Origin: Clostridiales bacterium
Lineage (GTDB): Bacteria > Bacillota_A > Clostridia > Oscillospirales > Oscillospiraceae
NCBI GenBank assembly: GCA_022777455.1
Contig: JALFGI010000169.1
Coordinates: 1-6,497 of the forward strand
DNA: 6,497 bases
Reading direction: 5' to 3'
The translations under genes and the position numbers were made by a program. The notes below the pieces were generated by a model. That model was not told the origin of the DNA, did no database searches, and saw nothing but the letters and a program-made list of their open reading frames with translations. This document shows positions 1-6,497 of this stretch, one piece after another. How positions within the stretch are numbered: the first letter of the stretch is position 1; the number at the start of each line of letters is the position of its first letter.

Positions 1-759
1 CGCATAGGCCTTCTCAAAGCCGACGCTCATGATGTTGCCCACGCTCATAATGAACTGAATCAGCACCGTATCCTTGATGGCAGGCCATTCCACCGCCTTA
101 ATCTGCTGGATGATGTTGGCTCCATCCAGAACAGCGGCTTCCTTCAGCTCCTTGCTGGCATTGGAAAGGGCTGCGGTGTAGATGATGGAGGCCCAGCCTG
201 CGCCCTGCCAGATGCCGCTGGCGATGTAGATGGTACGGAAGGCTTCGGGCATCGTCATGAAGTTGTAGTTGGTTCCCAGCAGCATGTTAATCATACCGGT
301 GGGAGACAGCAGGATTCTGACGATACCGCATAGGACGATGACGGAGATGAAGTTGGGCATATACAGTACCAGCTGGATCTTCTGCTTGATGCCGCTGCTG
401 AGAATCCGGTTCAGCAGGAAGGCCAGCAGGATCGGAGCCGGGAACCCCCACAGAAGCCCAAAGATGCTGAGCTTCAGAGTGTTCATCAGATACTGCATAA
501 AGTCCGGGGACGACAGGAACCGGGTGAAGTGGCTGAAACCGACCCACTCGCTTCCCAGGATACCTCTGATGGGGTTGTACTCTGTAAACGCGATCAAAAC
601 GCCGCCCATGGGGATGTAGCGGAAAATGACGGTCAACAGAACCGCGGGCAGCATAAAGATTACATACAGCTGCCAATGCTGGCGCATATAAACCAGCGTG
701 TTATGCAGTCCGGATGCTTTGCCCGTTTTTTCAGAGGTGCGTGTCATTGCTCCTTTCAT
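1..759 (-). CDS. ABC sugar transporter permease, LplB/UgpA type (3' part outside window)
   Basis: Inner subunit of a binding-protein-dependent carbohydrate importer in the cytoplasmic membrane; it forms the channel with a second permease, which is probably next in the operon beyond the left edge. The frame is open for 253 codons from the ATG at 759 to base 1, against roughly 300 residues usual for the family. A cytoplasmic N-terminus (about 1-30) leads into a first membrane segment around residues 31-58 (LYVIFMLPAVLLTVIF), and the MetI-like transmembrane domain starts near residue 90. The EAA loop that docks on the ATPase is clear at residues 207-226 (EAAVLDGAN...VEWPAI), and NIMSVGFEKAYA follows, as in LplB-like permeases. 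The start is fixed by GGAGGA at 770-765, five bases upstream; a second ATG at 747 lacks such a site. It is transcribed divergently from the LacI-type regulator, its likely controller. The family is confident; the sugar transported cannot be read from the sequence. Confidence 0.93.
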   Translation of the reverse strand, partial: MKGAMTRTSEKTGKASGLHNTLVYMRQHWQLYVIFMLPAVLLTVIFRYIPMGGVLIAFTEYNPIRGILGSEWVGFSHFTRFLSSPDFMQYLMNTLKLSIFGLLWGFPAPILLAFLLNRILSSGIKQKIQLVLYMPNFISVIVLCGIVRILLSPTGMINMLLGTNYNFMTMPEAFRTIYIASGIWQGAGWASIIYTAALSNASKELKEAAVLDGANIIQQIKAVEWPAIKDTVLIQFIMSVGNIMSVGFEKAYA

Positions 760-833
760 TTGATTCCTCCTTTTTTTATTTTGCCCTCTTAAATTTTACA
801 TTTGCACAATTTAAAAAGGCTTTTGACAACTTC

Positions 834-862
834 ATGGTATCACTTGACCTTTCGCCTGTCAA
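834..862 (-). promoter_or_regulatory. Probable sigma-A promoter of the permease gene
   Basis: On the minus strand there is a perfect TTGACA (862-857), a 17-base spacer, and TACCAT (839-834) preceded by TG one base upstream (TGATACCAT), an extended -10. The predicted start of transcription is near base 827, giving a leader of about 70 bases to the ATG at 759. An ATTTGCAC motif at 800-807 lies just downstream of the predicted start and another pair lies just upstream of the -35, positions that suit repression or looping. The -10 matches only 4 of 6 positions, so this is a prediction. Confidence 0.6.
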
Positions 863-938
863 CAGAAATTTAATATTTGCACAATCTTTGGTGCAAATGC
901 ACGATTTAGCACAGCCATATTTGCACACAATGACAGTG

Positions 939-951
939 GTCAAAATTTGAC
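939..951. promoter_or_regulatory. Palindrome GTCAAA-A-TTTGAC over the regulator -35
   Basis: A perfect inverted repeat with 6-base arms around one central base overlaps the TTGACA -35 box (947-952) of the regulator promoter. A looser repeat of the same half-site, TTGAC (844-848) and GTCAA (858-862), overlaps the -35 of the permease promoter. A protein bound at either would block RNA polymerase. Part of the similarity is forced by the -35 sequence itself, so the operator role is tentative. Confidence 0.35.
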
Positions 952-976
952 ATTTGCATATGGAATGTGTTATACT
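947..976 (+). promoter_or_regulatory. Sigma-A promoter of the LacI-type regulator operon
   Basis: Perfect TTGACA at 947-952, 18-base spacer, and TATACT at 971-976 with TG one base upstream (TGTTATACT), an extended -10. Transcription should begin near base 983, leaving a leader of under 30 bases before the ATG at 1011. This places the in-frame TTG at 981 at or before the transcript start, which supports the ATG start. Confidence 0.75.
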
Positions 977-1010
977 ATAATTGCAAAAAACGCGAATCAG
1001 GAGGGCTGAG

Positions 1011-2069
1011 ATGAACAAAAAAGTTACCATACAGGATATTGCCGACGCCCTGGGGATCTCCAGAAATACCGTATCCAAAGCCATCAACAACACCGAAGGG
1101 CTGGCAGACGCCACCAGAGAAAAGATTCTGCAGAAAGCCATGGAGATGGGCTATAAGCAGTTTTCCTATGCAGGCTCTATTGCAGCCATTTCCAGCGCGC
1201 CTGCTGCCCCTGAAACAGAACGCCCTGTAACGCCCGGATATCAGGGAGAAATCGCCCTGCTTACCGGTTCTTTCCTGACACATTCTCATTTCGCGTCCCT
1301 GATGCTGGATAAATTTCAGCGGGAAATCTCTCAGCTGGGCTACACCATGAATACCCATCGGATCACGGGGACAGAGCTAGCCAACAAGACCCTCCCGATT
1401 ACCATGAACATGGGGCAGATTAAAGCAATCATGTGCATTGAGATGTTTGACTGGGATTACGACGAGATGCTCTGCGGTCTGGATGTTCCCATTCTGTTTG
1501 TGGACGGCCCTGCCAAGCGCAGCGGAAGAAGCCTGCCGGCAGACCAGCTCTATATGGATAATACGACCGAAATCGCCCGGTTTGTCAATGATATGTTGGA
1601 AAAAGGGTTTACGAAGATTGGTTTTGTTGGAGATTACGACCATTGCCAGTCCTTTTTTGAGCGGTATTCCGCCTATTATCTGACCATGCTGATGGCTGGG
1701 CAGAAGGTTGAGAATCGCTTCGTTATCAAACAGAATCATCGTGAGGAGCTCATGGAGATCATTCCGGATATGCCGGAGCTGCCGGAAGTTTTCATCTGCG
1801 CAAACGATTTTGTGGCAACCGATCTGATGCAGGCTCTGGCCGCTGTGGGAAAGCGGGTGCCGGAGGATGTGCGTCTGTGCGGCTTCGATGATTCCGCCGA
1901 ATCCCGGCTGAGCAAACCGCCTCTGACCACGGTGCATATTCACACCCAGGTCATCGCCTATTCCGCTGTCCACCTTCTGATTTCCAGAATTAAGGCACCA
2001 TCTCTGGATTATCGTACCATCCACACGGAAACCGACCTGATCTACCGTGAATCCACGGGCACGCTTTGA
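1011..2069 (+). CDS. LacI-family transcriptional regulator
   Basis: DNA-binding repressor of 352 residues, probably sugar-responsive. The N-terminal helix-turn-helix is typical (residues 5-25, VTIQDIADALGISRNTVSKAI), followed by the hinge region ATREKILQKAMEMGYK (34-49). A Pro/Ala-rich stretch (about 52-78) separates it from the periplasmic-binding-protein-like effector domain, which shows GEIALLTGSF near 79, IGFVGDY near 203, and the family's C-terminal block PEVFICANDFVATDLMQ...GKRVPEDVRLCGFDDS (about 258-300), ending in LIYREST. The AGGAGGG at 999-1005, five bases before the ATG at 1011, sets the start; an in-frame TTG at 981 would add ten residues but lies at the predicted transcript start. 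The gene is divergent from the sugar permease and first of a three-gene operon, so it likely regulates both sides and itself. The effector sugar is unknown. Confidence 0.95.
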   Translation: MNKKVTIQDIADALGISRNTVSKAINNTEGLADATREKILQKAMEMGYKQFSYAGSIAAISSAPAAPETERPVTPGYQGEIALLTGSFLTHSHFASLMLDKFQREISQLGYTMNTHRITGTELANKTLPITMNMGQIKAIMCIEMFDWDYDEMLCGLDVPILFVDGPAKRSGRSLPADQLYMDNTTEIARFVNDMLEKGFTKIGFVGDYDHCQSFFERYSAYYLTMLMAGQKVENRFVIKQNHREELMEIIPDMPELPEVFICANDFVATDLMQALAAVGKRVPEDVRLCGFDDSAESRLSKPPLTTVHIHTQVIAYSAVHLLISRIKAPSLDYRTIHTETDLIYRESTGTL

Positions 2070-2077
2070 GGATTGTT

Positions 2078-2728
2078 ATGAGACTGTTTTCTTATGACAG
2101 CAAGTTCAGCCAGATCATGCTGAAACTTTGCTACGGCTGCTATCTGAACCTTCTGTGGATGGTATGCTCCCTGCCGGTGATCACTGCGGGAGCCGCCACA
2201 GCCGCCCTGTATGACGTGACCCTGCGTCTTGCCCGGGAGGAAGAGCCGCCGCTCACCCGCCAGTTTTTCAAGGCCTTCCGGGAGAATTTCCGGCAGGCGA
2301 CCATTCTATGGCTGATTTTGCTGGGAGTTGGGGCGTTACTGGGAGCGGACGGATACATACTCTACCGCCTTTCCAAAGGCACCACCGGTGTTGTGCCCAC
2401 GGTCTGCACGCTGGGTCTGGCGCTGATTATTGCGGCAGCCATCGCTTATGTGATTGTGCTGCTCTATGTTTTTCCGTTGGTTGCCAGCGTAAAAAACACC
2501 AACTGGGCAATGCTGAAAAATGCACTGCTCATCGGCATTCACTATCTGTTCTGCACAATTCTGGTGTTTGCCATCCATTTTGCCATGTTCTTTGCGGTGG
2601 TTGCCATCTACACCCCGCTGATCATCTTTGGTGAGGGCCTTTGCGCTTTGCTCAGCTCCTATCTGCTGGGCAAGGTCATCCGCGCCTGCGCCTATGACCC
2701 GGCAGAGGAAAGTGGGGCAGACCAATGA
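2078..2728 (+). CDS. YesL family (DUF624) membrane protein
   Basis: Integral membrane protein of 216 residues in the family of B. subtilis YesL, whose gene lies in a rhamnogalacturonan utilisation cluster; the biochemical role of the family is not established. The diagnostic N-terminal block is present: RLFSYDSKFSQIM (2-14), NLLWM (24-28), SLPVITAGAATAALY (31-45). Hydrophobic segments lie at roughly 18-38, 69-92 and 103-131, and two more lie in the C-terminal third (around LFCTILVFAIHFAMFFAVVA and the stretch after it). The start is the ATG at 2078, six bases after GAGG (2068-2071) embedded in the end of the regulator gene; an in-frame TTG at 2066 would overlap the upstream stop region and add four residues. 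It is translationally close to the regulator (8 bases) and overlaps the next gene by ATGA. YesL proteins commonly accompany LplB/LplC-type transporters, which fits the divergent permease. Confidence 0.88.
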   Translation: MRLFSYDSKFSQIMLKLCYGCYLNLLWMVCSLPVITAGAATAALYDVTLRLAREEEPPLTRQFFKAFRENFRQATILWLILLGVGALLGADGYILYRLSKGTTGVVPTVCTLGLALIIAAAIAYVIVLLYVFPLVASVKNTNWAMLKNALLIGIHYLFCTILVFAIHFAMFFAVVAIYTPLIIFGEGLCALLSSYLLGKVIRACAYDPAEESGADQ

Positions 2729-3435
2729 AGCTGTCCCCGGAGGAGCGCCGCCAGCGTCGGGAAATGTTCCGGCAGCTGAGCCGGGCAAAAAAGCTGGAAC
2801 ACATCTGGCTGTACTACAAAGCGCCGATCCTTTTGACCATCCTGGCGTTGGGAATCCTGCTATCCGGGGTGTATCGGGCAGCTGCCAAAAAGGAGCCGGT
2901 GGTGTATCTCGCCTGCCTGAACGTTTCTGTGGGCGAGGATATGGAAGCCCGGCTGACGGAGGACTATCTGACCTGCCGCGGGTTGAATCCCAAGCGTAAC
3001 GAGGTGCGGCTCTACCGGAATCTGTATCTGTCTGATGATCCCGCCGCTTCCGATCACGAATTTGCCTACGCATCCAGAATGAAGCTGCTGGCAACCATCA
3101 ATTCCAAGCAATTGGATTTGGTTCTCATGAACCGGGAAGCCTACAATCTCTGCTCTGCCAGCGGCTATCTGCTGGATCTATCGGATATTTTGGATTCCGC
3201 CTGTCTGACTGCCAATCGGGTCATTCTGGAAGACAATGCCGTGGAGTACAATCTGAATGCGGCGCAGGAATACACCGCCGTAACAGAAACCGTGTATAAC
3301 GCTCTGGAATTGACACAACTATCTGCGTTTCAGAAAGCCGGTTTCTCTGACAGCGTGTATATCGGTATCATTGCCAATACCCCACGACTGCCTGAGTCCC
3401 AAGACTATCTTGACTACCTGATTTCTACCGACTGA
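2725..3435 (+). CDS. Membrane-anchored protein of unknown function, YesL-associated
   Basis: A 236-residue protein I cannot assign to a named family. The N-terminus is strongly basic and charged (EERRQRREMFRQLSRAKK, 6-23), followed by HIWLYYK and a single hydrophobic anchor at about 33-50 (APILLTILALGILLSGVY), so the remaining 185 residues probably face outside the membrane (an N-in orientation, from the positive-inside rule). The outer part has a segment, KLLATINSKQLDLVLMNREAYNLC...GYLLDLSDIL (about 115-155), that resembles the stretch of extracellular solute-binding proteins where a residue-poor cleft is followed by xLDLTxxL; this resemblance is by eye only. The ATG overlaps the stop of the YesL gene (ATGA at 2725-2728), so the two are probably translationally coupled, with only a weak GGGG ribosome site. 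It is the last gene of the operon. A helper or sensor for the transporter is possible but not shown. Confidence 0.85.
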   Translation: MKLSPEERRQRREMFRQLSRAKKLEHIWLYYKAPILLTILALGILLSGVYRAAAKKEPVVYLACLNVSVGEDMEARLTEDYLTCRGLNPKRNEVRLYRNLYLSDDPAASDHEFAYASRMKLLATINSKQLDLVLMNREAYNLCSASGYLLDLSDILDSACLTANRVILEDNAVEYNLNAAQEYTAVTETVYNALELTQLSAFQKAGFSDSVYIGIIANTPRLPESQDYLDYLISTD

Positions 3436-3496
3436 AACAATACAGGGATGTCCCACCAAAAAGTGATGCAGCCCCCAAAATAATGGAGAAATAACA

Positions 3497-3525
3497 ACAG
3501 CCGGCTCTATGAAAGAGTCGGCTGT
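3497..3525 (+). terminator. Strong hairpin after the operon, possible terminator without U-tract
   Basis: ACAGCCGGCTC (3497-3507) pairs with GAGTCGGCTGT (3515-3525): an 11-base stem with one G-U pair and a TATGAAA loop, about 60 bases after the operon's last stop. It has no T-run downstream on the plus strand (the sequence continues CGCCGTATCATGAAA). It may be a terminator whose tail was displaced by the intron fragment beginning 15 bases later, or an RNA-stability element. Confidence 0.45.
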
Positions 3526-3540
3526 CGCCGTATCATGAAA

Positions 3541-4050
3541 GTGTGAGGCAAAAACACGCAAAATGTGCCTCGATTCCAGAACGGAGCCGAGGCATTGAAT
3601 ATATGATTTACTGTGAAACCTTCTCCCGGTTGAGCGTCAAAAAGGCAGACTACCCCCATGGTGGATGAGAAGGTGTTTTTTTGGTATAGAATCAGGCAGT
3701 CAGTACAGGTGTGGCAACAGCCAAGAGCAAGGGTGTCCCGGGTAACTGGGAATCTGAAGGAAGCTGGAGGCAAATCACTGGCCTGACGAACAGAAATCAT
3801 GAAGGCTGAATATGTGGGTAAGGCTGCAAGACAAGTCGAAGCCCAATAGCTGTACGGAAACATATTCAGTAACCACGGCATGGTATATGGTGAGCAGGAA
3901 CATGCGAGTACCTGGGGAGGTCCTGCGGACATGCGGAGTTTTTTACGAGGCATGGCCCCAACAAGATTTGTCGCAGGAAGTCAGATGAATCCATAGTACC
4001 AACGCAGTCGACGGCGTTGGGAAGGGAGGAACCCTTGGATGTGGCAGTAA
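3541..4050 (+). mobile_element. Group II intron, 5' fragment (domain I to start of domain IV), truncated
   Basis: The sequence starts with GTGTG (3541-3545), matching the GUGYG 5' consensus, and carries blocks I recognise from group II introns of gut Clostridia: AAACCTTCTCCCGGTTGAGC, GTCAAAAAGGCAGACTACC, GGATGAGAAGGTG, GTCCCGGGTAACTGGGAATC, CTGAAGGAAGC, CTGACGAACAGAAATCATG, ACCTGGGGAGGTCCTGCGG, GAAGTCAGATGAATCCATAG followed by TACC. Long-range pairing is visible (ACCTTCTC 3618-3625 with GAGAAGGT 3667-3674). A stem CCAACGC/GCGTTGG (3999-4020) and GGGAGGAACCC stand where the maturase gene would begin. No reverse transcriptase frame and no domain V hairpin (AGC triad, GAAA-type loop) follow before the rny promoter, so it cannot splice or move by itself. 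The right boundary is uncertain: intron-like sequence may reach about 4127. Recognition is from memory of the family, not from a search. Confidence 0.78.
3545..3594 (+). repeat. Mutually exclusive hairpins near the intron 5' end
   Basis: TGCCTCG (3566-3572) can pair either upstream with GAGGCA (3545-3550) or downstream with CGAGGCA (3588-3594), so only one stem forms at a time. Within a group II intron this is most simply part of the domain I folding; the alternation may have no regulatory meaning. Confidence 0.4.
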
Positions 4051-4127
4051 ATGAAGGTTACCGAAGTCGAAAGAAAAGAAAGCACAAAACATTGCTGTGG
4101 CAATGGCTGTCTGTGGAGGGATATTGA
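4035..4127 (+). pseudogene. Possible remnant of the intron-encoded protein start (30 codons)
   Basis: A TTG at 4035, five bases after GGGAGG (4024-4029), opens a 30-codon frame reading LDVAVNEGYRSRKKRKHK and ending QWLSVEGY before TGA (4125-4127). It lies exactly where group II introns start their maturase gene and is very basic. The alternative ATG at 4039 stops after three codons. A longer frame from the ATG at 4051 (86 codons) runs through the rny promoter and is not credible. The remnant interpretation rests on position; I do not recognise the peptide. Confidence 0.25.
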
Positions 4128-4170
4128 ATGCTGTACGATTAAAAATGCACAAAATGGCTGGAATTTTTCC

Positions 4171-4199
4171 TTGACAATCCGGCACGATGCTAGTAGAAT
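4171..4199 (+). promoter_or_regulatory. Sigma-A promoter for rny
   Basis: Perfect TTGACA (4171-4176), an ideal 17-base spacer, and TAGAAT (4194-4199), 5 of 6 matches. Transcription should start near 4206, about 220 bases upstream of the rny ATG. The promoter lies just right of the intron fragment, so rny keeps its own transcription despite that insertion. Confidence 0.8.
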
Positions 4200-4221
4200 G
4201 AATCTGGTATGGTTTACACTC

Positions 4222-4248
4222 ACCCGGGGTGTCCTTTTCCCGGGTTTT
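4222..4248 (+). terminator. Terminator-like hairpin early in the rny leader
   Basis: ACCCGGG (4222-4228) pairs with CCCGGGT (4239-4245) around a 10-base loop, followed by TTT (TTTT counting the last stem base) and then GTATTTC. It starts about 16 bases after the predicted transcript start. The short T-run makes it at best a partial terminator or pause site; it could equally protect the 5' end of the mRNA. Confidence 0.45.
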
Positions 4249-4263
4249 GTATTTCATTTAGAA

Positions 4264-4309
4264 CCGGCATTTGGCCGGGGATCGCGCGTTTATCGCCACA
4301 TGGCGTTTT
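4264..4309 (+). promoter_or_regulatory. Two further hairpins in the rny leader
   Basis: CCGGC/GCCGG (4264-4268 with 4274-4278, loop ATTTG) and CGCC/GGCG (4294-4297 with 4302-4305, loop ACAT) are perfect short stems; the second is followed directly by TTTT (4306-4309). With the hairpins on either side they make a chain of four stems in a 130-base leader segment. Confidence 0.4.
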
Positions 4310-4325
4310 GATGCTGATATGCCCT

Positions 4326-4351
4326 GCCGGGTTTCCCGGCGGCGGTTTTTT
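4326..4351 (+). terminator. Terminator-like hairpin (attenuator candidate) before rny
   Basis: GCCGGG (4326-4331) and CCCGGC (4335-4340) form a perfect stem with a TTT loop, extendable by two pairs below (T-G, C-G), then GCGG and six T (4346-4351). It lies about 75 bases before the rny ATG. If it terminates, a leader RNA of roughly 145 bases would be released and rny expression would depend on readthrough. Confidence 0.5.
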
Positions 4352-4403
4352 GCAAACAATTTCACATGGGCTTTGACGCACACCCCTGGCCGCAATTTTT
4401 TGG

Positions 4404-4410
4404 AAGGAGG
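4404..4410 (+). promoter_or_regulatory. rny ribosome binding site with long spacing
   Basis: AAGGAGG is a near-perfect anti-16S match but lies 15 bases before the ATG at 4426, longer than the usual 5-9. No in-frame ATG, GTG or TTG lies closer; the in-frame ATT at 4423 would shorten the gap to 12. It excludes the in-frame ATG at 4366, which precedes the site. Confidence 0.6.
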
Positions 4411-4425
4411 TGTGCTGCAAGAATT

Positions 4426-5886
4426 ATGGCATGGATGATTACTGTAATCGCTGCCATCCTGGGCATCGCCGTGGGTTTCCTGGCGGGTATGCTCTACCGC
4501 AAAAAGGTTGCTGAACGGGCCATCGGCTCTGCCGAAGCAGAGGCCACCCGGCTGATCAACGAAGCAATCCGCAGCGGCGAGAACCGCAAGAAGGAAATGC
4601 TGCTGGAAGCCAAGGATGAAATCCATAAATCTCGCGCAGAACACGACAAGGAAGTCAAAGAGCGCCGCGCTGAGCTCACCAAGCAGGAGCGCCGCCTCGA
4701 GCAGAAGGAAGCCTCCCTGGACAAAAAGACAGAGGCTTTTGAACGCAAGGAAGAGGAGCTGAACAAGCACCTGGCCAATGTGGCTCAGACCCAGGCCCAG
4801 GCAGAGGAGCTCCGCAATCAGCAGATGGCCACCCTGGAGCAGATCTCCGGGCTGACCCAGGACCAGGCAAAGCAGTTCTTGCTGGACTCCATTGAGCAGG
4901 ATGTCCGCCATGACGCCGCTCAGAAAATCAAGGAAATCGAACAGCAGCTGAAGGATGAGGCCGAAGAAAAGGGCCGGGAGATTATTGCCACCGCCATCCA
5001 GCGCTGCGCCGCCGACCACGCCGCGGAAACCACCGTCTCCGTGGTCACCCTGCCCAACGACGAAATGAAGGGCCGCATCATCGGCCGGGAGGGCCGGAAC
5101 ATCCGCACCCTGGAGACCATCACCGGGGTTGACCTGATCATCGACGATACCCCCGAAGCCATCACCGTCAGCTCCTTCGATCCCGTCCGCCGGGAGATCG
5201 CCCGGCTGGCATTGGAAAAGCTGATCGTGGACGGCCGCATCCATCCCACCCGCATCGAGGATATGGTGGAGAAGGCCCGGAAGGAAGTGGACCGCACCAT
5301 CCGGGAGGAGGGCGAGCGGGCCTGCTACGAAACCGGCGTTCACAACCTGAACCCCGAGCTCATCAAGATTCTGGGCCGCCAGAAGTACCGCACCTCCTAT
5401 GGTCAGAACGTGCTGAACCACTCCATCGAAGTGGCCCACATCGCCGGCCTCATGGCCGCCGAGCTGGGTGAGGACGTGGCCATGGCCAAGCGGGCAGGAT
5501 TGCTCCATGACCTGGGCAAGTCCATCGACCACGAGGTGGAGGGCAGCCATGTGCAGCTGGGCGCCGATCTGGCCCGGAAATTCAAGGAAAATCCCGTCGT
5601 CGTCAACGCCATCGAGGCCCACCACGGCGATGTGGAGCCCAAGACCGTCATCGCCGTGCTGATTCAGGCCGCCGATGCCATCTCCGCCGCCCGTCCCGGC
5701 GCCCGGAGAGAAAATGTGGAGAATTATATCCGCCGGCTTCAGAAGCTGGAGGAGCTCACCGGCTCCTATCCCGGCGTGGACAAGGCCTATGCCATTCAGG
5801 CCGGCCGGGAGGTCCGCATCATGGTCAAGCCCGAAGAGGTCAACGAGGACAGCATGATCCTCCTGGCCCGGGACATTGCCAAGTAG
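4426..5886 (+). CDS. rny: Ribonuclease Y, interrupted by an in-frame TAG near the C-terminus
   Basis: Membrane-anchored endoribonuclease that starts mRNA decay in many Gram-positive bacteria. The 486 codons to the TAG encode an N-terminal membrane segment (about 4-22, [20 protein letters not shown]), a long charged coiled coil rich in E, K, R and Q (about 25-190), a KH RNA-binding domain with GRIIGREG (216-223; the GxxG loop), and the HD metal-dependent nuclease domain with [10 protein letters not shown], catalytic H361-D362, and downstream EAHHGDVEP and [16 protein letters not shown]. The start at ATG 4426 gives the membrane anchor directly at the N-terminus as in known RNase Y proteins; the upstream in-frame ATG at 4366 precedes the ribosome site. 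The frame stops at TAG 5884-5886, 26 codons short of the family's normal end, which is present in the same frame downstream (next entry). Apart from that the protein looks intact and is likely at least partly functional. Confidence 0.96.
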
Positions 5887-5967
5887 ATCGAAGCCGAGCT
5901 GGAATTCCCCGGCCAGATCAAGGTCAACGTCTTCCGGGAGACCAAGGCAATCGAATACGCAAAATAA
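5887..5967 (+). other. rny: Conserved RNase Y C-terminus downstream of the in-frame TAG
   Basis: In the same frame as rny, directly after the TAG, 26 codons read from IEAELEFPGQIKV to RETKAIEYAK and end in TAA at 5965-5967. This is the well-known RNase Y tail (B. subtilis RNase Y ends similarly, with VIRETRAVEYAK). In relatives the position of the TAG is usually a lysine, glutamine or similar residue (for example KKIE or KEIE), so a single AAG-to-TAG or CAG-to-TAG change explains it. With readthrough the protein would be 513 residues. The intact terminator follows eight bases later, which confirms the TAA as the ancestral stop. Confidence 0.9.
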
Positions 5968-5975
5968 AAAAAGCA

Positions 5976-6008
5976 CCGGCCAGGGAATTTTCCCCGGCCG
6001 GGTTTTTT
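5976..6008 (+). terminator. Intrinsic terminator of rny
   Basis: CCGGCC-A-GGG (5976-5985) pairs with CCC-C-GGCCGG (5992-6001), nine pairs with one A-C mismatch, AATTTT loop, then G and six T (6003-6008). It is preceded by an A-run. It begins eight bases after the TAA at 5967. Confidence 0.92.
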
Positions 6009-6053
6009 CTGACATTTCGCTAAATTGTAATTTGGCGTACCGGAACCGACGCG

Positions 6054-6209
6054 CCCCTTGGCTCCCCCTATGGGGGAGCTGGCTGCCCCCTAGGGGGCAG
6101 ACTGAGAGGGCAACACAGTTTGGATTGAAAGCGGTTGCGATCTTTCCTGCGGCACCCTCTCAGTCAGCCTGTTCGGCTGACAGCTCTCCCAAAGGGAGAG
6201 CCAAGGGGG
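6054..6209. repeat. Palindromic intergenic repeat, two inverted arms (MITE/REP-like)
   Basis: The left arm (6054-6110) opens CCCCTTGGCTC and closes GACTGAGAGGG; the right arm (6155-6209) is the inverse, opening CCCTCTCAGTC and closing GAGCCAAGGGGG. Each arm contains two hairpins: left, GCTCCCCC/GGGGGAGC (6061-6079) and the perfect 18-base palindrome CTGCCCCCTAGGGGGCAG (6083-6100); right, GTCAGCC/GGCTGAC (6163-6181) and GCTCTCCC/GGGAGAGC (6183-6201). The inner hairpins differ between arms while the outer blocks agree. A 44-base spacer separates the arms. I recall very similar sequences scattered between genes of gut Oscillospiraceae. No transposase frame is present, so any mobility would need one supplied elsewhere. 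Confidence 0.75.
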
Positions 6210-6241
6210 TGCTGCCGTATTATCCCGCCATATTTCATTTT

Positions 6242-6290
6242 GCGGAATCCGCGGGGGACAGCTGCGGAATTGGGACGGGAAACCCGTCCC
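6242..6290. repeat. Perfect hairpin abutting the deacetylase stop codon
   Basis: GGGACGGG (6272-6279) and CCCGTCCC (6283-6290) form an 8-base perfect stem with an AAA loop; a smaller GCGG/CCGC stem lies at 6242-6252. On the minus strand the unit reads TGTAGGGGACGGG, a form I associate with another common intergenic repeat of gut Clostridia. It begins right after the TAG stop of the deacetylase gene and may serve as its terminator, though no T-run follows on that strand. Confidence 0.55.
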
Positions 6291-6497
6291 CTACAGTTGG
6301 GGCGTGGGCTGAGCGAATAGTTCCGAAATGGGGGCGAAGCGGTAGCCCTGCTGCTCCCAGCGACTCAGCAGCTCGTCCAAAATGTCGGCGTTGGTCTGGC
6401 TGGTGGAATGGAGGAGCACCACCGCTCCCGGGTGGGTGCGGGGGAGGAGCTTATTAAAGGCCGTGTCCCGGGTGGGCTGGGCGTCGTTTTTCCAGTC
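6291..6497 (-). CDS. Polysaccharide deacetylase, PdaA-like (C-terminal 68 residues)
   Basis: The frame enters from the right edge and ends at TAG (6293-6291). The 68 visible residues start DWKNDAQPTRDTAFNKLL and contain HPGAVVLLHSTSQTNADIL, ending QGYRFAPISELF. This is the C-terminal part of the NodB-fold (CE4) domain: DWK corresponds to the motif-4 region and the histidine of LLH (codon 6410-6408) to the motif-5 catalytic-site histidine. PdaA of spore formers removes acetyl groups from peptidoglycan during muramic delta-lactam formation in the spore cortex; the order DWK, then HPGA, then LLH, then NA and LxxLxxxGY, fits PdaA better than chitin deacetylases, but the rest of the gene is not visible. 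It converges on rny, separated by terminator and repeats. Confidence 0.85.
   Translation of the reverse strand, partial: DWKNDAQPTRDTAFNKLLPRTHPGAVVLLHSTSQTNADILDELLSRWEQQGYRFAPISELFAQPTPQL

Follow-up and report, generated by a model that had tools for sequence, protein, structure and literature searches.

An in-frame amber codon near the end of the ribonuclease Y gene of a gut Oscillospiraceae bacterium, probably an ordinary mutation of the strain or an error in the sequence

Introduction

When the frame of a conserved gene is interrupted by a stop codon and runs on intact behind it, one has to ask whether the gene was recently damaged, whether the sequence is in error, or whether the ribosome occasionally inserts an amino acid there. 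This is the question raised by the window analysed here, by which we mean the whole stretch of 6,497 nucleotides, in which rny, the gene for ribonuclease Y (RNase Y), carries a TAG followed by 26 further codons. We argue that the stop, as it stands, has the appearance either of a mutation of an ordinary kind in the strain or of an error in the sequence. The features on which the argument turns are these:

4404 to 4410, + strand: AAGGAGG, the probable ribosome-binding site of rny, as read off the sequence
4426 to 5886, + strand: rny, ribonuclease Y, 486 codons plus TAG (TIGR03319, 709.5 bits; Pfam RNase_Y_N, KH_1 and HD)
5884 to 5886, + strand: the in-frame TAG, codon 487, lysine in 79 of 84 relative sequences by codon comparison
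5887 to 5964, + strand: the rny tail, 26 codons behind the TAG, IEAELEFPGQIKVNVFRETKAIEYAK (TIGR03319 profile reached to 514 of 514; strand 499-504 in the low-confidence model of a natural full-length relative)
5905 to 5907, + strand: codon 494, F, with Y in 83 of 83 relative sequences that have a letter there
5932 to 5934, + strand: codon 503, F, with I in 83 of 83 relative sequences that have a letter there
5965 to 5967, + strand: TAA, the usual end of rny in relatives

Results

The rny frame begins with the ATG at 4426 and, past the TAG, stays open until the TAA at 5965-5967. The preliminary description had the coordinates of the stop, the name of the gene and its 486 residues exactly right, as it did the 26 codons in frame before the TAA. 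Given that its score against TIGR03319 (709.5 bits) lies over the curated cut-off of 454.35 and that KH_1 (residues 207-264) and HD (329-421) are present, upstream of the stop like RNase_Y_N, the 486-residue product belongs to RNase Y; its match stops at profile position 487 of 514, short of a complete C-terminal region. If the frame is continued with an X at the stop, the score rises to 756.5 bits and the match reaches 514 of 514, and the tail is thus the conserved tail of the RNase Y family, as had been proposed.

To appreciate what the short product would lack, we turned to a structural model of P0002, a natural full-length relative, calculated with 38 other relatives as the alignment, which shows a helix at 474-491 and a strand at 499-504 near its end and has a mean pLDDT of 63, with blocks at 68-81 across 431-500 and at 58 for 501-510. 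According to this low-confidence model, a stop at 487 would fall within the helix and remove the strand, and would leave KH and HD in place. A sequence search for a solved RNase Y structure gave none at E <= 0.001. For the Bacillus subtilis enzyme, the excerpts of PMC9775385 used here describe a C-terminal region (438-520) that comprises two helices and a sheet of three strands and has no function assigned to it; in the AlphaFold model presented there, the last strand packs in the predicted dimer interface, and two-hybrid tests in the same excerpts gave no self-interaction of the C-terminal region.

The preliminary description had suggested that the codon be compared with the same position in other strains. 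We compared the window with the best 80 of 185 confirmed relatives, which are mostly uncultured Oscillospiraceae, Clostridia or Clostridiales and include several Faecousia, and to these 80 loci we added L089, L119 and L121-L124, giving 86 comparison rows (87 with the window), among which L121 and L123 are probable duplicates of L050 and L044, respectively. Two of the rows (L071 and L076) do not reach codon 487. In 78 of the best 80 loci the codon is AAG (71), CGC (3), CAG (2) or AAA (2) and never a stop, and in the 84 relative sequences with a letter there the residue is lysine in 79, arginine in 3 and glutamine in 2. A stop at the same place in orthologues, such as programmed readthrough would lead one to expect, is found in 0 of these 84. 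The tail is recognisable in 119 of the 120 homologous proteins listed, each of the 119 having lysine at the position of the stop, and the frame is open through the tail in the nearest relative, G119 (97% protein identity; 91.4% DNA identity over 4286-5977). The stop is, in other words, private to the window among all the sequences compared. No plasmid record resembling window positions 4300-6300 was found.

On its left side, the window carries an ABC permease (- strand), a LacI-type regulator, a DUF624 membrane protein and a 236-aa protein that matched no family (all within 1-3435), followed by a group II intron relic. The latter consists of an RF02001 match at 3736-3906 (+ strand, 118.1 bits) and a weaker RF01998 match at 3960-4027 (+ strand), whose 33.8 bits lie just under the gathering score of 35; no domain 5/6 family was reported and no reverse-transcriptase frame occurs before rny. 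A piece of the relic (3776-3930) has a 75% identical copy on another contig of the nearest relative. Since DNA matches of window positions 1-4300 to G119 are confined to 3776-3930 and 4170-4260, the left neighbourhood of rny seems to differ between the two.

Has the tail been preserved behind the stop? According to the preliminary description it shows no decay, a statement that did not survive the comparison, because codons 494 and 503 encode residues absent from the 83 relative sequences. A wider set of 119 homologue tails gives the same picture, with Y in all at codon 494 and I in 118 and L in one at codon 503. Of the 19 tail residues that are invariant in relatives, 2 are changed in the window, as opposed to 0 of 235 in codons 1-486 (Fisher p = 0.005; this and the other tail tests are post hoc and small, and their p-values are uncorrected for kinship or for picking the tail as the region). 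The window is alone among the 87 rows in having two such changes in the tail, one change being seen in 2 rows and none in 84. Both replacements are mild. Relatives likewise lack the residues that the window has at 4 and 115, yet these are variable positions.

The codons were compared as well. With G119 and the other relatives used to polarise the changes in the window, the tail has 3 nonsynonymous changes (the stop included) and 0 synonymous ones, as compared with 4 and 14 in codons 26-486 (p = 0.026); with the stop left out the ratio becomes 2:0 versus 4:14, with p about 0.08 as calculated by hand. Unpolarised, the comparison with G119 gives 3 nonsynonymous and 4 synonymous differences in the 26 tail codons and 17 and 96 in codons 1-486. 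The 2 of 19 against 0 of 235 speaks against purifying selection behind the stop, albeit on small numbers and with a tail that is unexceptional at the DNA level. There, the window has 3 deviations at bases at least 95% conserved, a count reached by 4 of the 87 rows, L002 and the window itself included; the list of these bases lacks the first letter of codon 487, whose conservation is slightly below the threshold.

The stop and both changes of tail residues are A>T changes lying within 49 bases, a type that is not seen among the other 19 polarised changes in the window or the 20 in G119. An origin of the three changes by templating from a palindrome was considered and rejected: the changes raise the local palindrome score by 1, 2 and 2, and among the 212 T positions of the gene a rise of at least 1 is seen in 50% and of at least 2 in 35%, so that there is no signal. 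The amino-acid changes in the tail can be understood as the result of relaxed selection behind a real stop; their uniform A>T type is compatible with a local base error as well. A tail maintained by readthrough does not explain either the residue changes or the uniform type well.

We also looked for stray stops elsewhere in the genus, using the RNase Y protein of the window as a query against 136 genomes (the genus of G002, G119 included). A match was obtained in 113 of them, including partial genes and a few weak matches to the HD domain only, and 2 of the 113 have one stop inside rny. These are L030, with TAA at residue 455 (judging by coordinates, this locus is the G114 match of the genus search), and L119, with TAG at residue 439, both in window numbering and both private; neither has, behind its stop, a residue unseen in the other rows. 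A stop also occurs in the weak match of G062 (E = 5e-4), which is not rny. Outside the genus, there was no stop in the matches of the 140 genomes over the rny cut-off in a sample of the order (147 genomes) and none in rny among the matches listed for a sample of the family (400 genomes, 342 over the cut-off), the two samples sharing some genomes. As for controls within the genus, over-cut-off matches to dnaK (93 genomes) and gyrB (113 genomes) contained no stop. Among relatives, 1 of 9 over-cut-off prfA matches did; this match, L126 from G005, has one in-frame TGA, perhaps an error or another private stop. Two genomes, G023 and G024, each have two near-complete rny genes on separate contigs (L121-L124), and these could be mixed bins or true duplicates.

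Though rare, rny stops thus stand at three different places in the genus, the window included, which speaks against a conserved recoding site. All three (439, 455 and 487) lie behind the HD domain (329-421), and we regard this as a weak lead.

How would a TAG be decoded in this organism? Behind the TAA of rny, the right end of the window holds two further features:

5976 to 6001, either strand: hairpin terminator, as judged by folding against shuffles
6291 to 6497, - strand: 3' end of a polysaccharide deacetylase gene (spore PdaA-like, TIGR02884), with its stop TAG at 6291-6293

The strong terminator noted in the preliminary description just after the TAA is borne out, the hairpin on the + strand having a folding energy of -24.9 kcal/mol (z = -4.35), with 0 of 200 shuffles equally stable. 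The - strand folds similarly (z = -4.53), and a scan for the terminator consensus lists the hairpin on the - strand only. The PdaA-like gene, whose end alone lies in the window, contributes 68 residues that match TIGR02884 at 164-223 of 224 with 61.2 bits, below the cut-off for the whole protein; it ends in TAG near the end of the profile, that is, with TAG as an ordinary terminator. Between rny and this gene, at 6054-6208, lies a long imperfect inverted repeat with 34-nt arms that are 85% complementary and an inner 15-nt pair at 93%; in the nearest relative, three overlapping loci show a single copy of a 15-base piece of this repeat upstream of rny.

The rny gene of one relative, L065, itself terminates in TAG. 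In 9 of 10 relatives, G119 included, release factor 1 (RF1, the prfA product) exceeds the cut-off, the match in G001 lying below it. This RF1 count and the TAG that ends the PdaA-like gene speak against a genome-wide reassignment of the amber codon. The window contains no tRNA gene. A search for pyrrolysyl-tRNA synthetase (PylS), another check that the preliminary description had suggested, was run on the relatives and gave no match over the cut-off in the 136 genomes of the genus; weak matches in 39 genomes were all below 25 bits. As far as can be seen from the window and the relatives, therefore, TAG is an ordinary stop here, although this particular strain might carry a suppressor tRNA.

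Discussion

The explanation to which we give an even chance is that the window carries a private nonsense allele of an otherwise ordinary rny, a genuine allele of this strain of a gut Oscillospiraceae bacterium, with the tail under relaxed selection. The TAG would then be read as a normal stop and yield a 486-aa RNase Y with its membrane anchor, coiled coil, KH and HD domains, and the short protein would lose the end of the last helix together with the last beta-strand, which has been proposed to serve dimerisation by one AlphaFold study. The tail would be untranslated and would have begun to drift. If the stop is real in the organism and terminates translation, we infer that the short enzyme, though impaired, is still active. 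Rescue of such an enzyme by RNase E/G was considered and rejected, since a search of the genus detected RNase E/G in 0 of 136 genomes. Damage to RNase Y should for the same reason be costly, and this cost is one of the reasons why a base error stays a strong rival. Among the papers listed for RNase Y and nonsense mutations, no title points to rny nonsense alleles.

According to that rival, which we consider a serious contender although we would put it at somewhat less than an even chance, the stop, and perhaps both of the other changes in the tail too, are base errors in the assembly and the organism's rny is full-length. Three identical A>T changes in so short a stretch, of a type missing from the other polarised changes, are what such an error would be consistent with, as are the private in-frame stops in rny of 2 of the 113 genus genomes and in 1 of the 9 prfA matches, on top of the price that a broken RNase Y would carry. 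However, the stop-free matches of dnaK and gyrB suggest that stops due to error are rare in these assemblies, and codons 1-486 of the window have none of their 235 invariant residues altered. The probabilities that we attach to this and to the other explanations are judgements, not computed values. The preliminary description had laid its stress on occasional translation of the amber codon, by which the gene would give two forms of RNase Y, one short and one long, and we consider this reading very improbable. In its favor are a frame that continues past the stop to the TAA at which the family normally ends, encoding a recognisable tail, and precedent in the literature, namely the conserved in-frame stops of PMC7918605 and the Escherichia coli reporters of PMC11126739, as far as the excerpts of these papers go; in the latter, readthrough is described as frequent, in the order TGA > TAG > TAA. 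But the stop is shared by none of the 84 relatives, the tail has lost 2 of its 19 invariant residues, PylS is missing over the cut-off from all 136 genus genomes, RF1 is present in 9 of 10 relatives and the neighbouring gene ends in TAG. The other two readings of the preliminary description, a recent change and a sequence error, both fit the data; readthrough finds no support in them.

It is also conceivable, although we deem it unlikely, that the genus permits or even favours losing what follows the HD domain and that recurrent nonsense codons there give rise to a shorter, working RNase Y. The position of all three stops behind HD is consistent with this, as is the absence of an assigned function for the C-terminal region in the portion of PMC9775385 that describes it. 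On the other hand, there are only three cases, of which the window's was picked for its position; the order sample (140 genomes over the cut-off) and the matches listed for the family sample are free of rny stops; no unusual residue stands behind the stops at 439 and 455, as one would expect of errors or of very young alleles; and the C-terminal region is conserved. A bolder version, to which we would assign hardly any weight, holds that RNase Y of the genus dispenses with the region behind HD, or is tuned by losing it, such that independent nonsense codons at 439, 455 and 487 would yield short versions of this main endonuclease of mRNA decay whose dimerisation is altered, with rare readthrough of the amber codon providing some full-length enzyme in the strain of the window.

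To return to the nonsense allele, if the stop is real, the strain would have an RNase Y naturally truncated at its C-terminus, in a genus where 0 of 136 genomes gave an RNase E/G match, and this would make the C-terminal region amenable to testing. If, instead, it is an error, it serves as a warning against inferring recoding from single stops in assembled sequence.

Seen next to known systems, the window shares with pyrrolysine and other amber-suppressor recoding an in-frame TAG, here in rny, but it differs in belonging to a genus without PylS over the cut-off (136 genomes) and with RF1 in 9 of 10 relatives. According to the part of PMC7918605 consulted, in-frame stops under purifying selection are widespread in bacterial genes, and like the cases described there, the window has a single stop in a conserved gene with no frameshift or deletion; unlike them, with their stops at the same position in orthologues and dN/dS below 1, its stop is private and its tail has signs of relaxed constraint. 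The protein of the window can also be set next to ordinary RNase Y (TIGR03319; B. subtilis), from which it departs in its 486 codons versus about 513 in relatives and in the missing last beta-strand, and with which it shares the anchor and coiled-coil region, the KH and HD domains and, behind the stop, a tail that is still recognisable.
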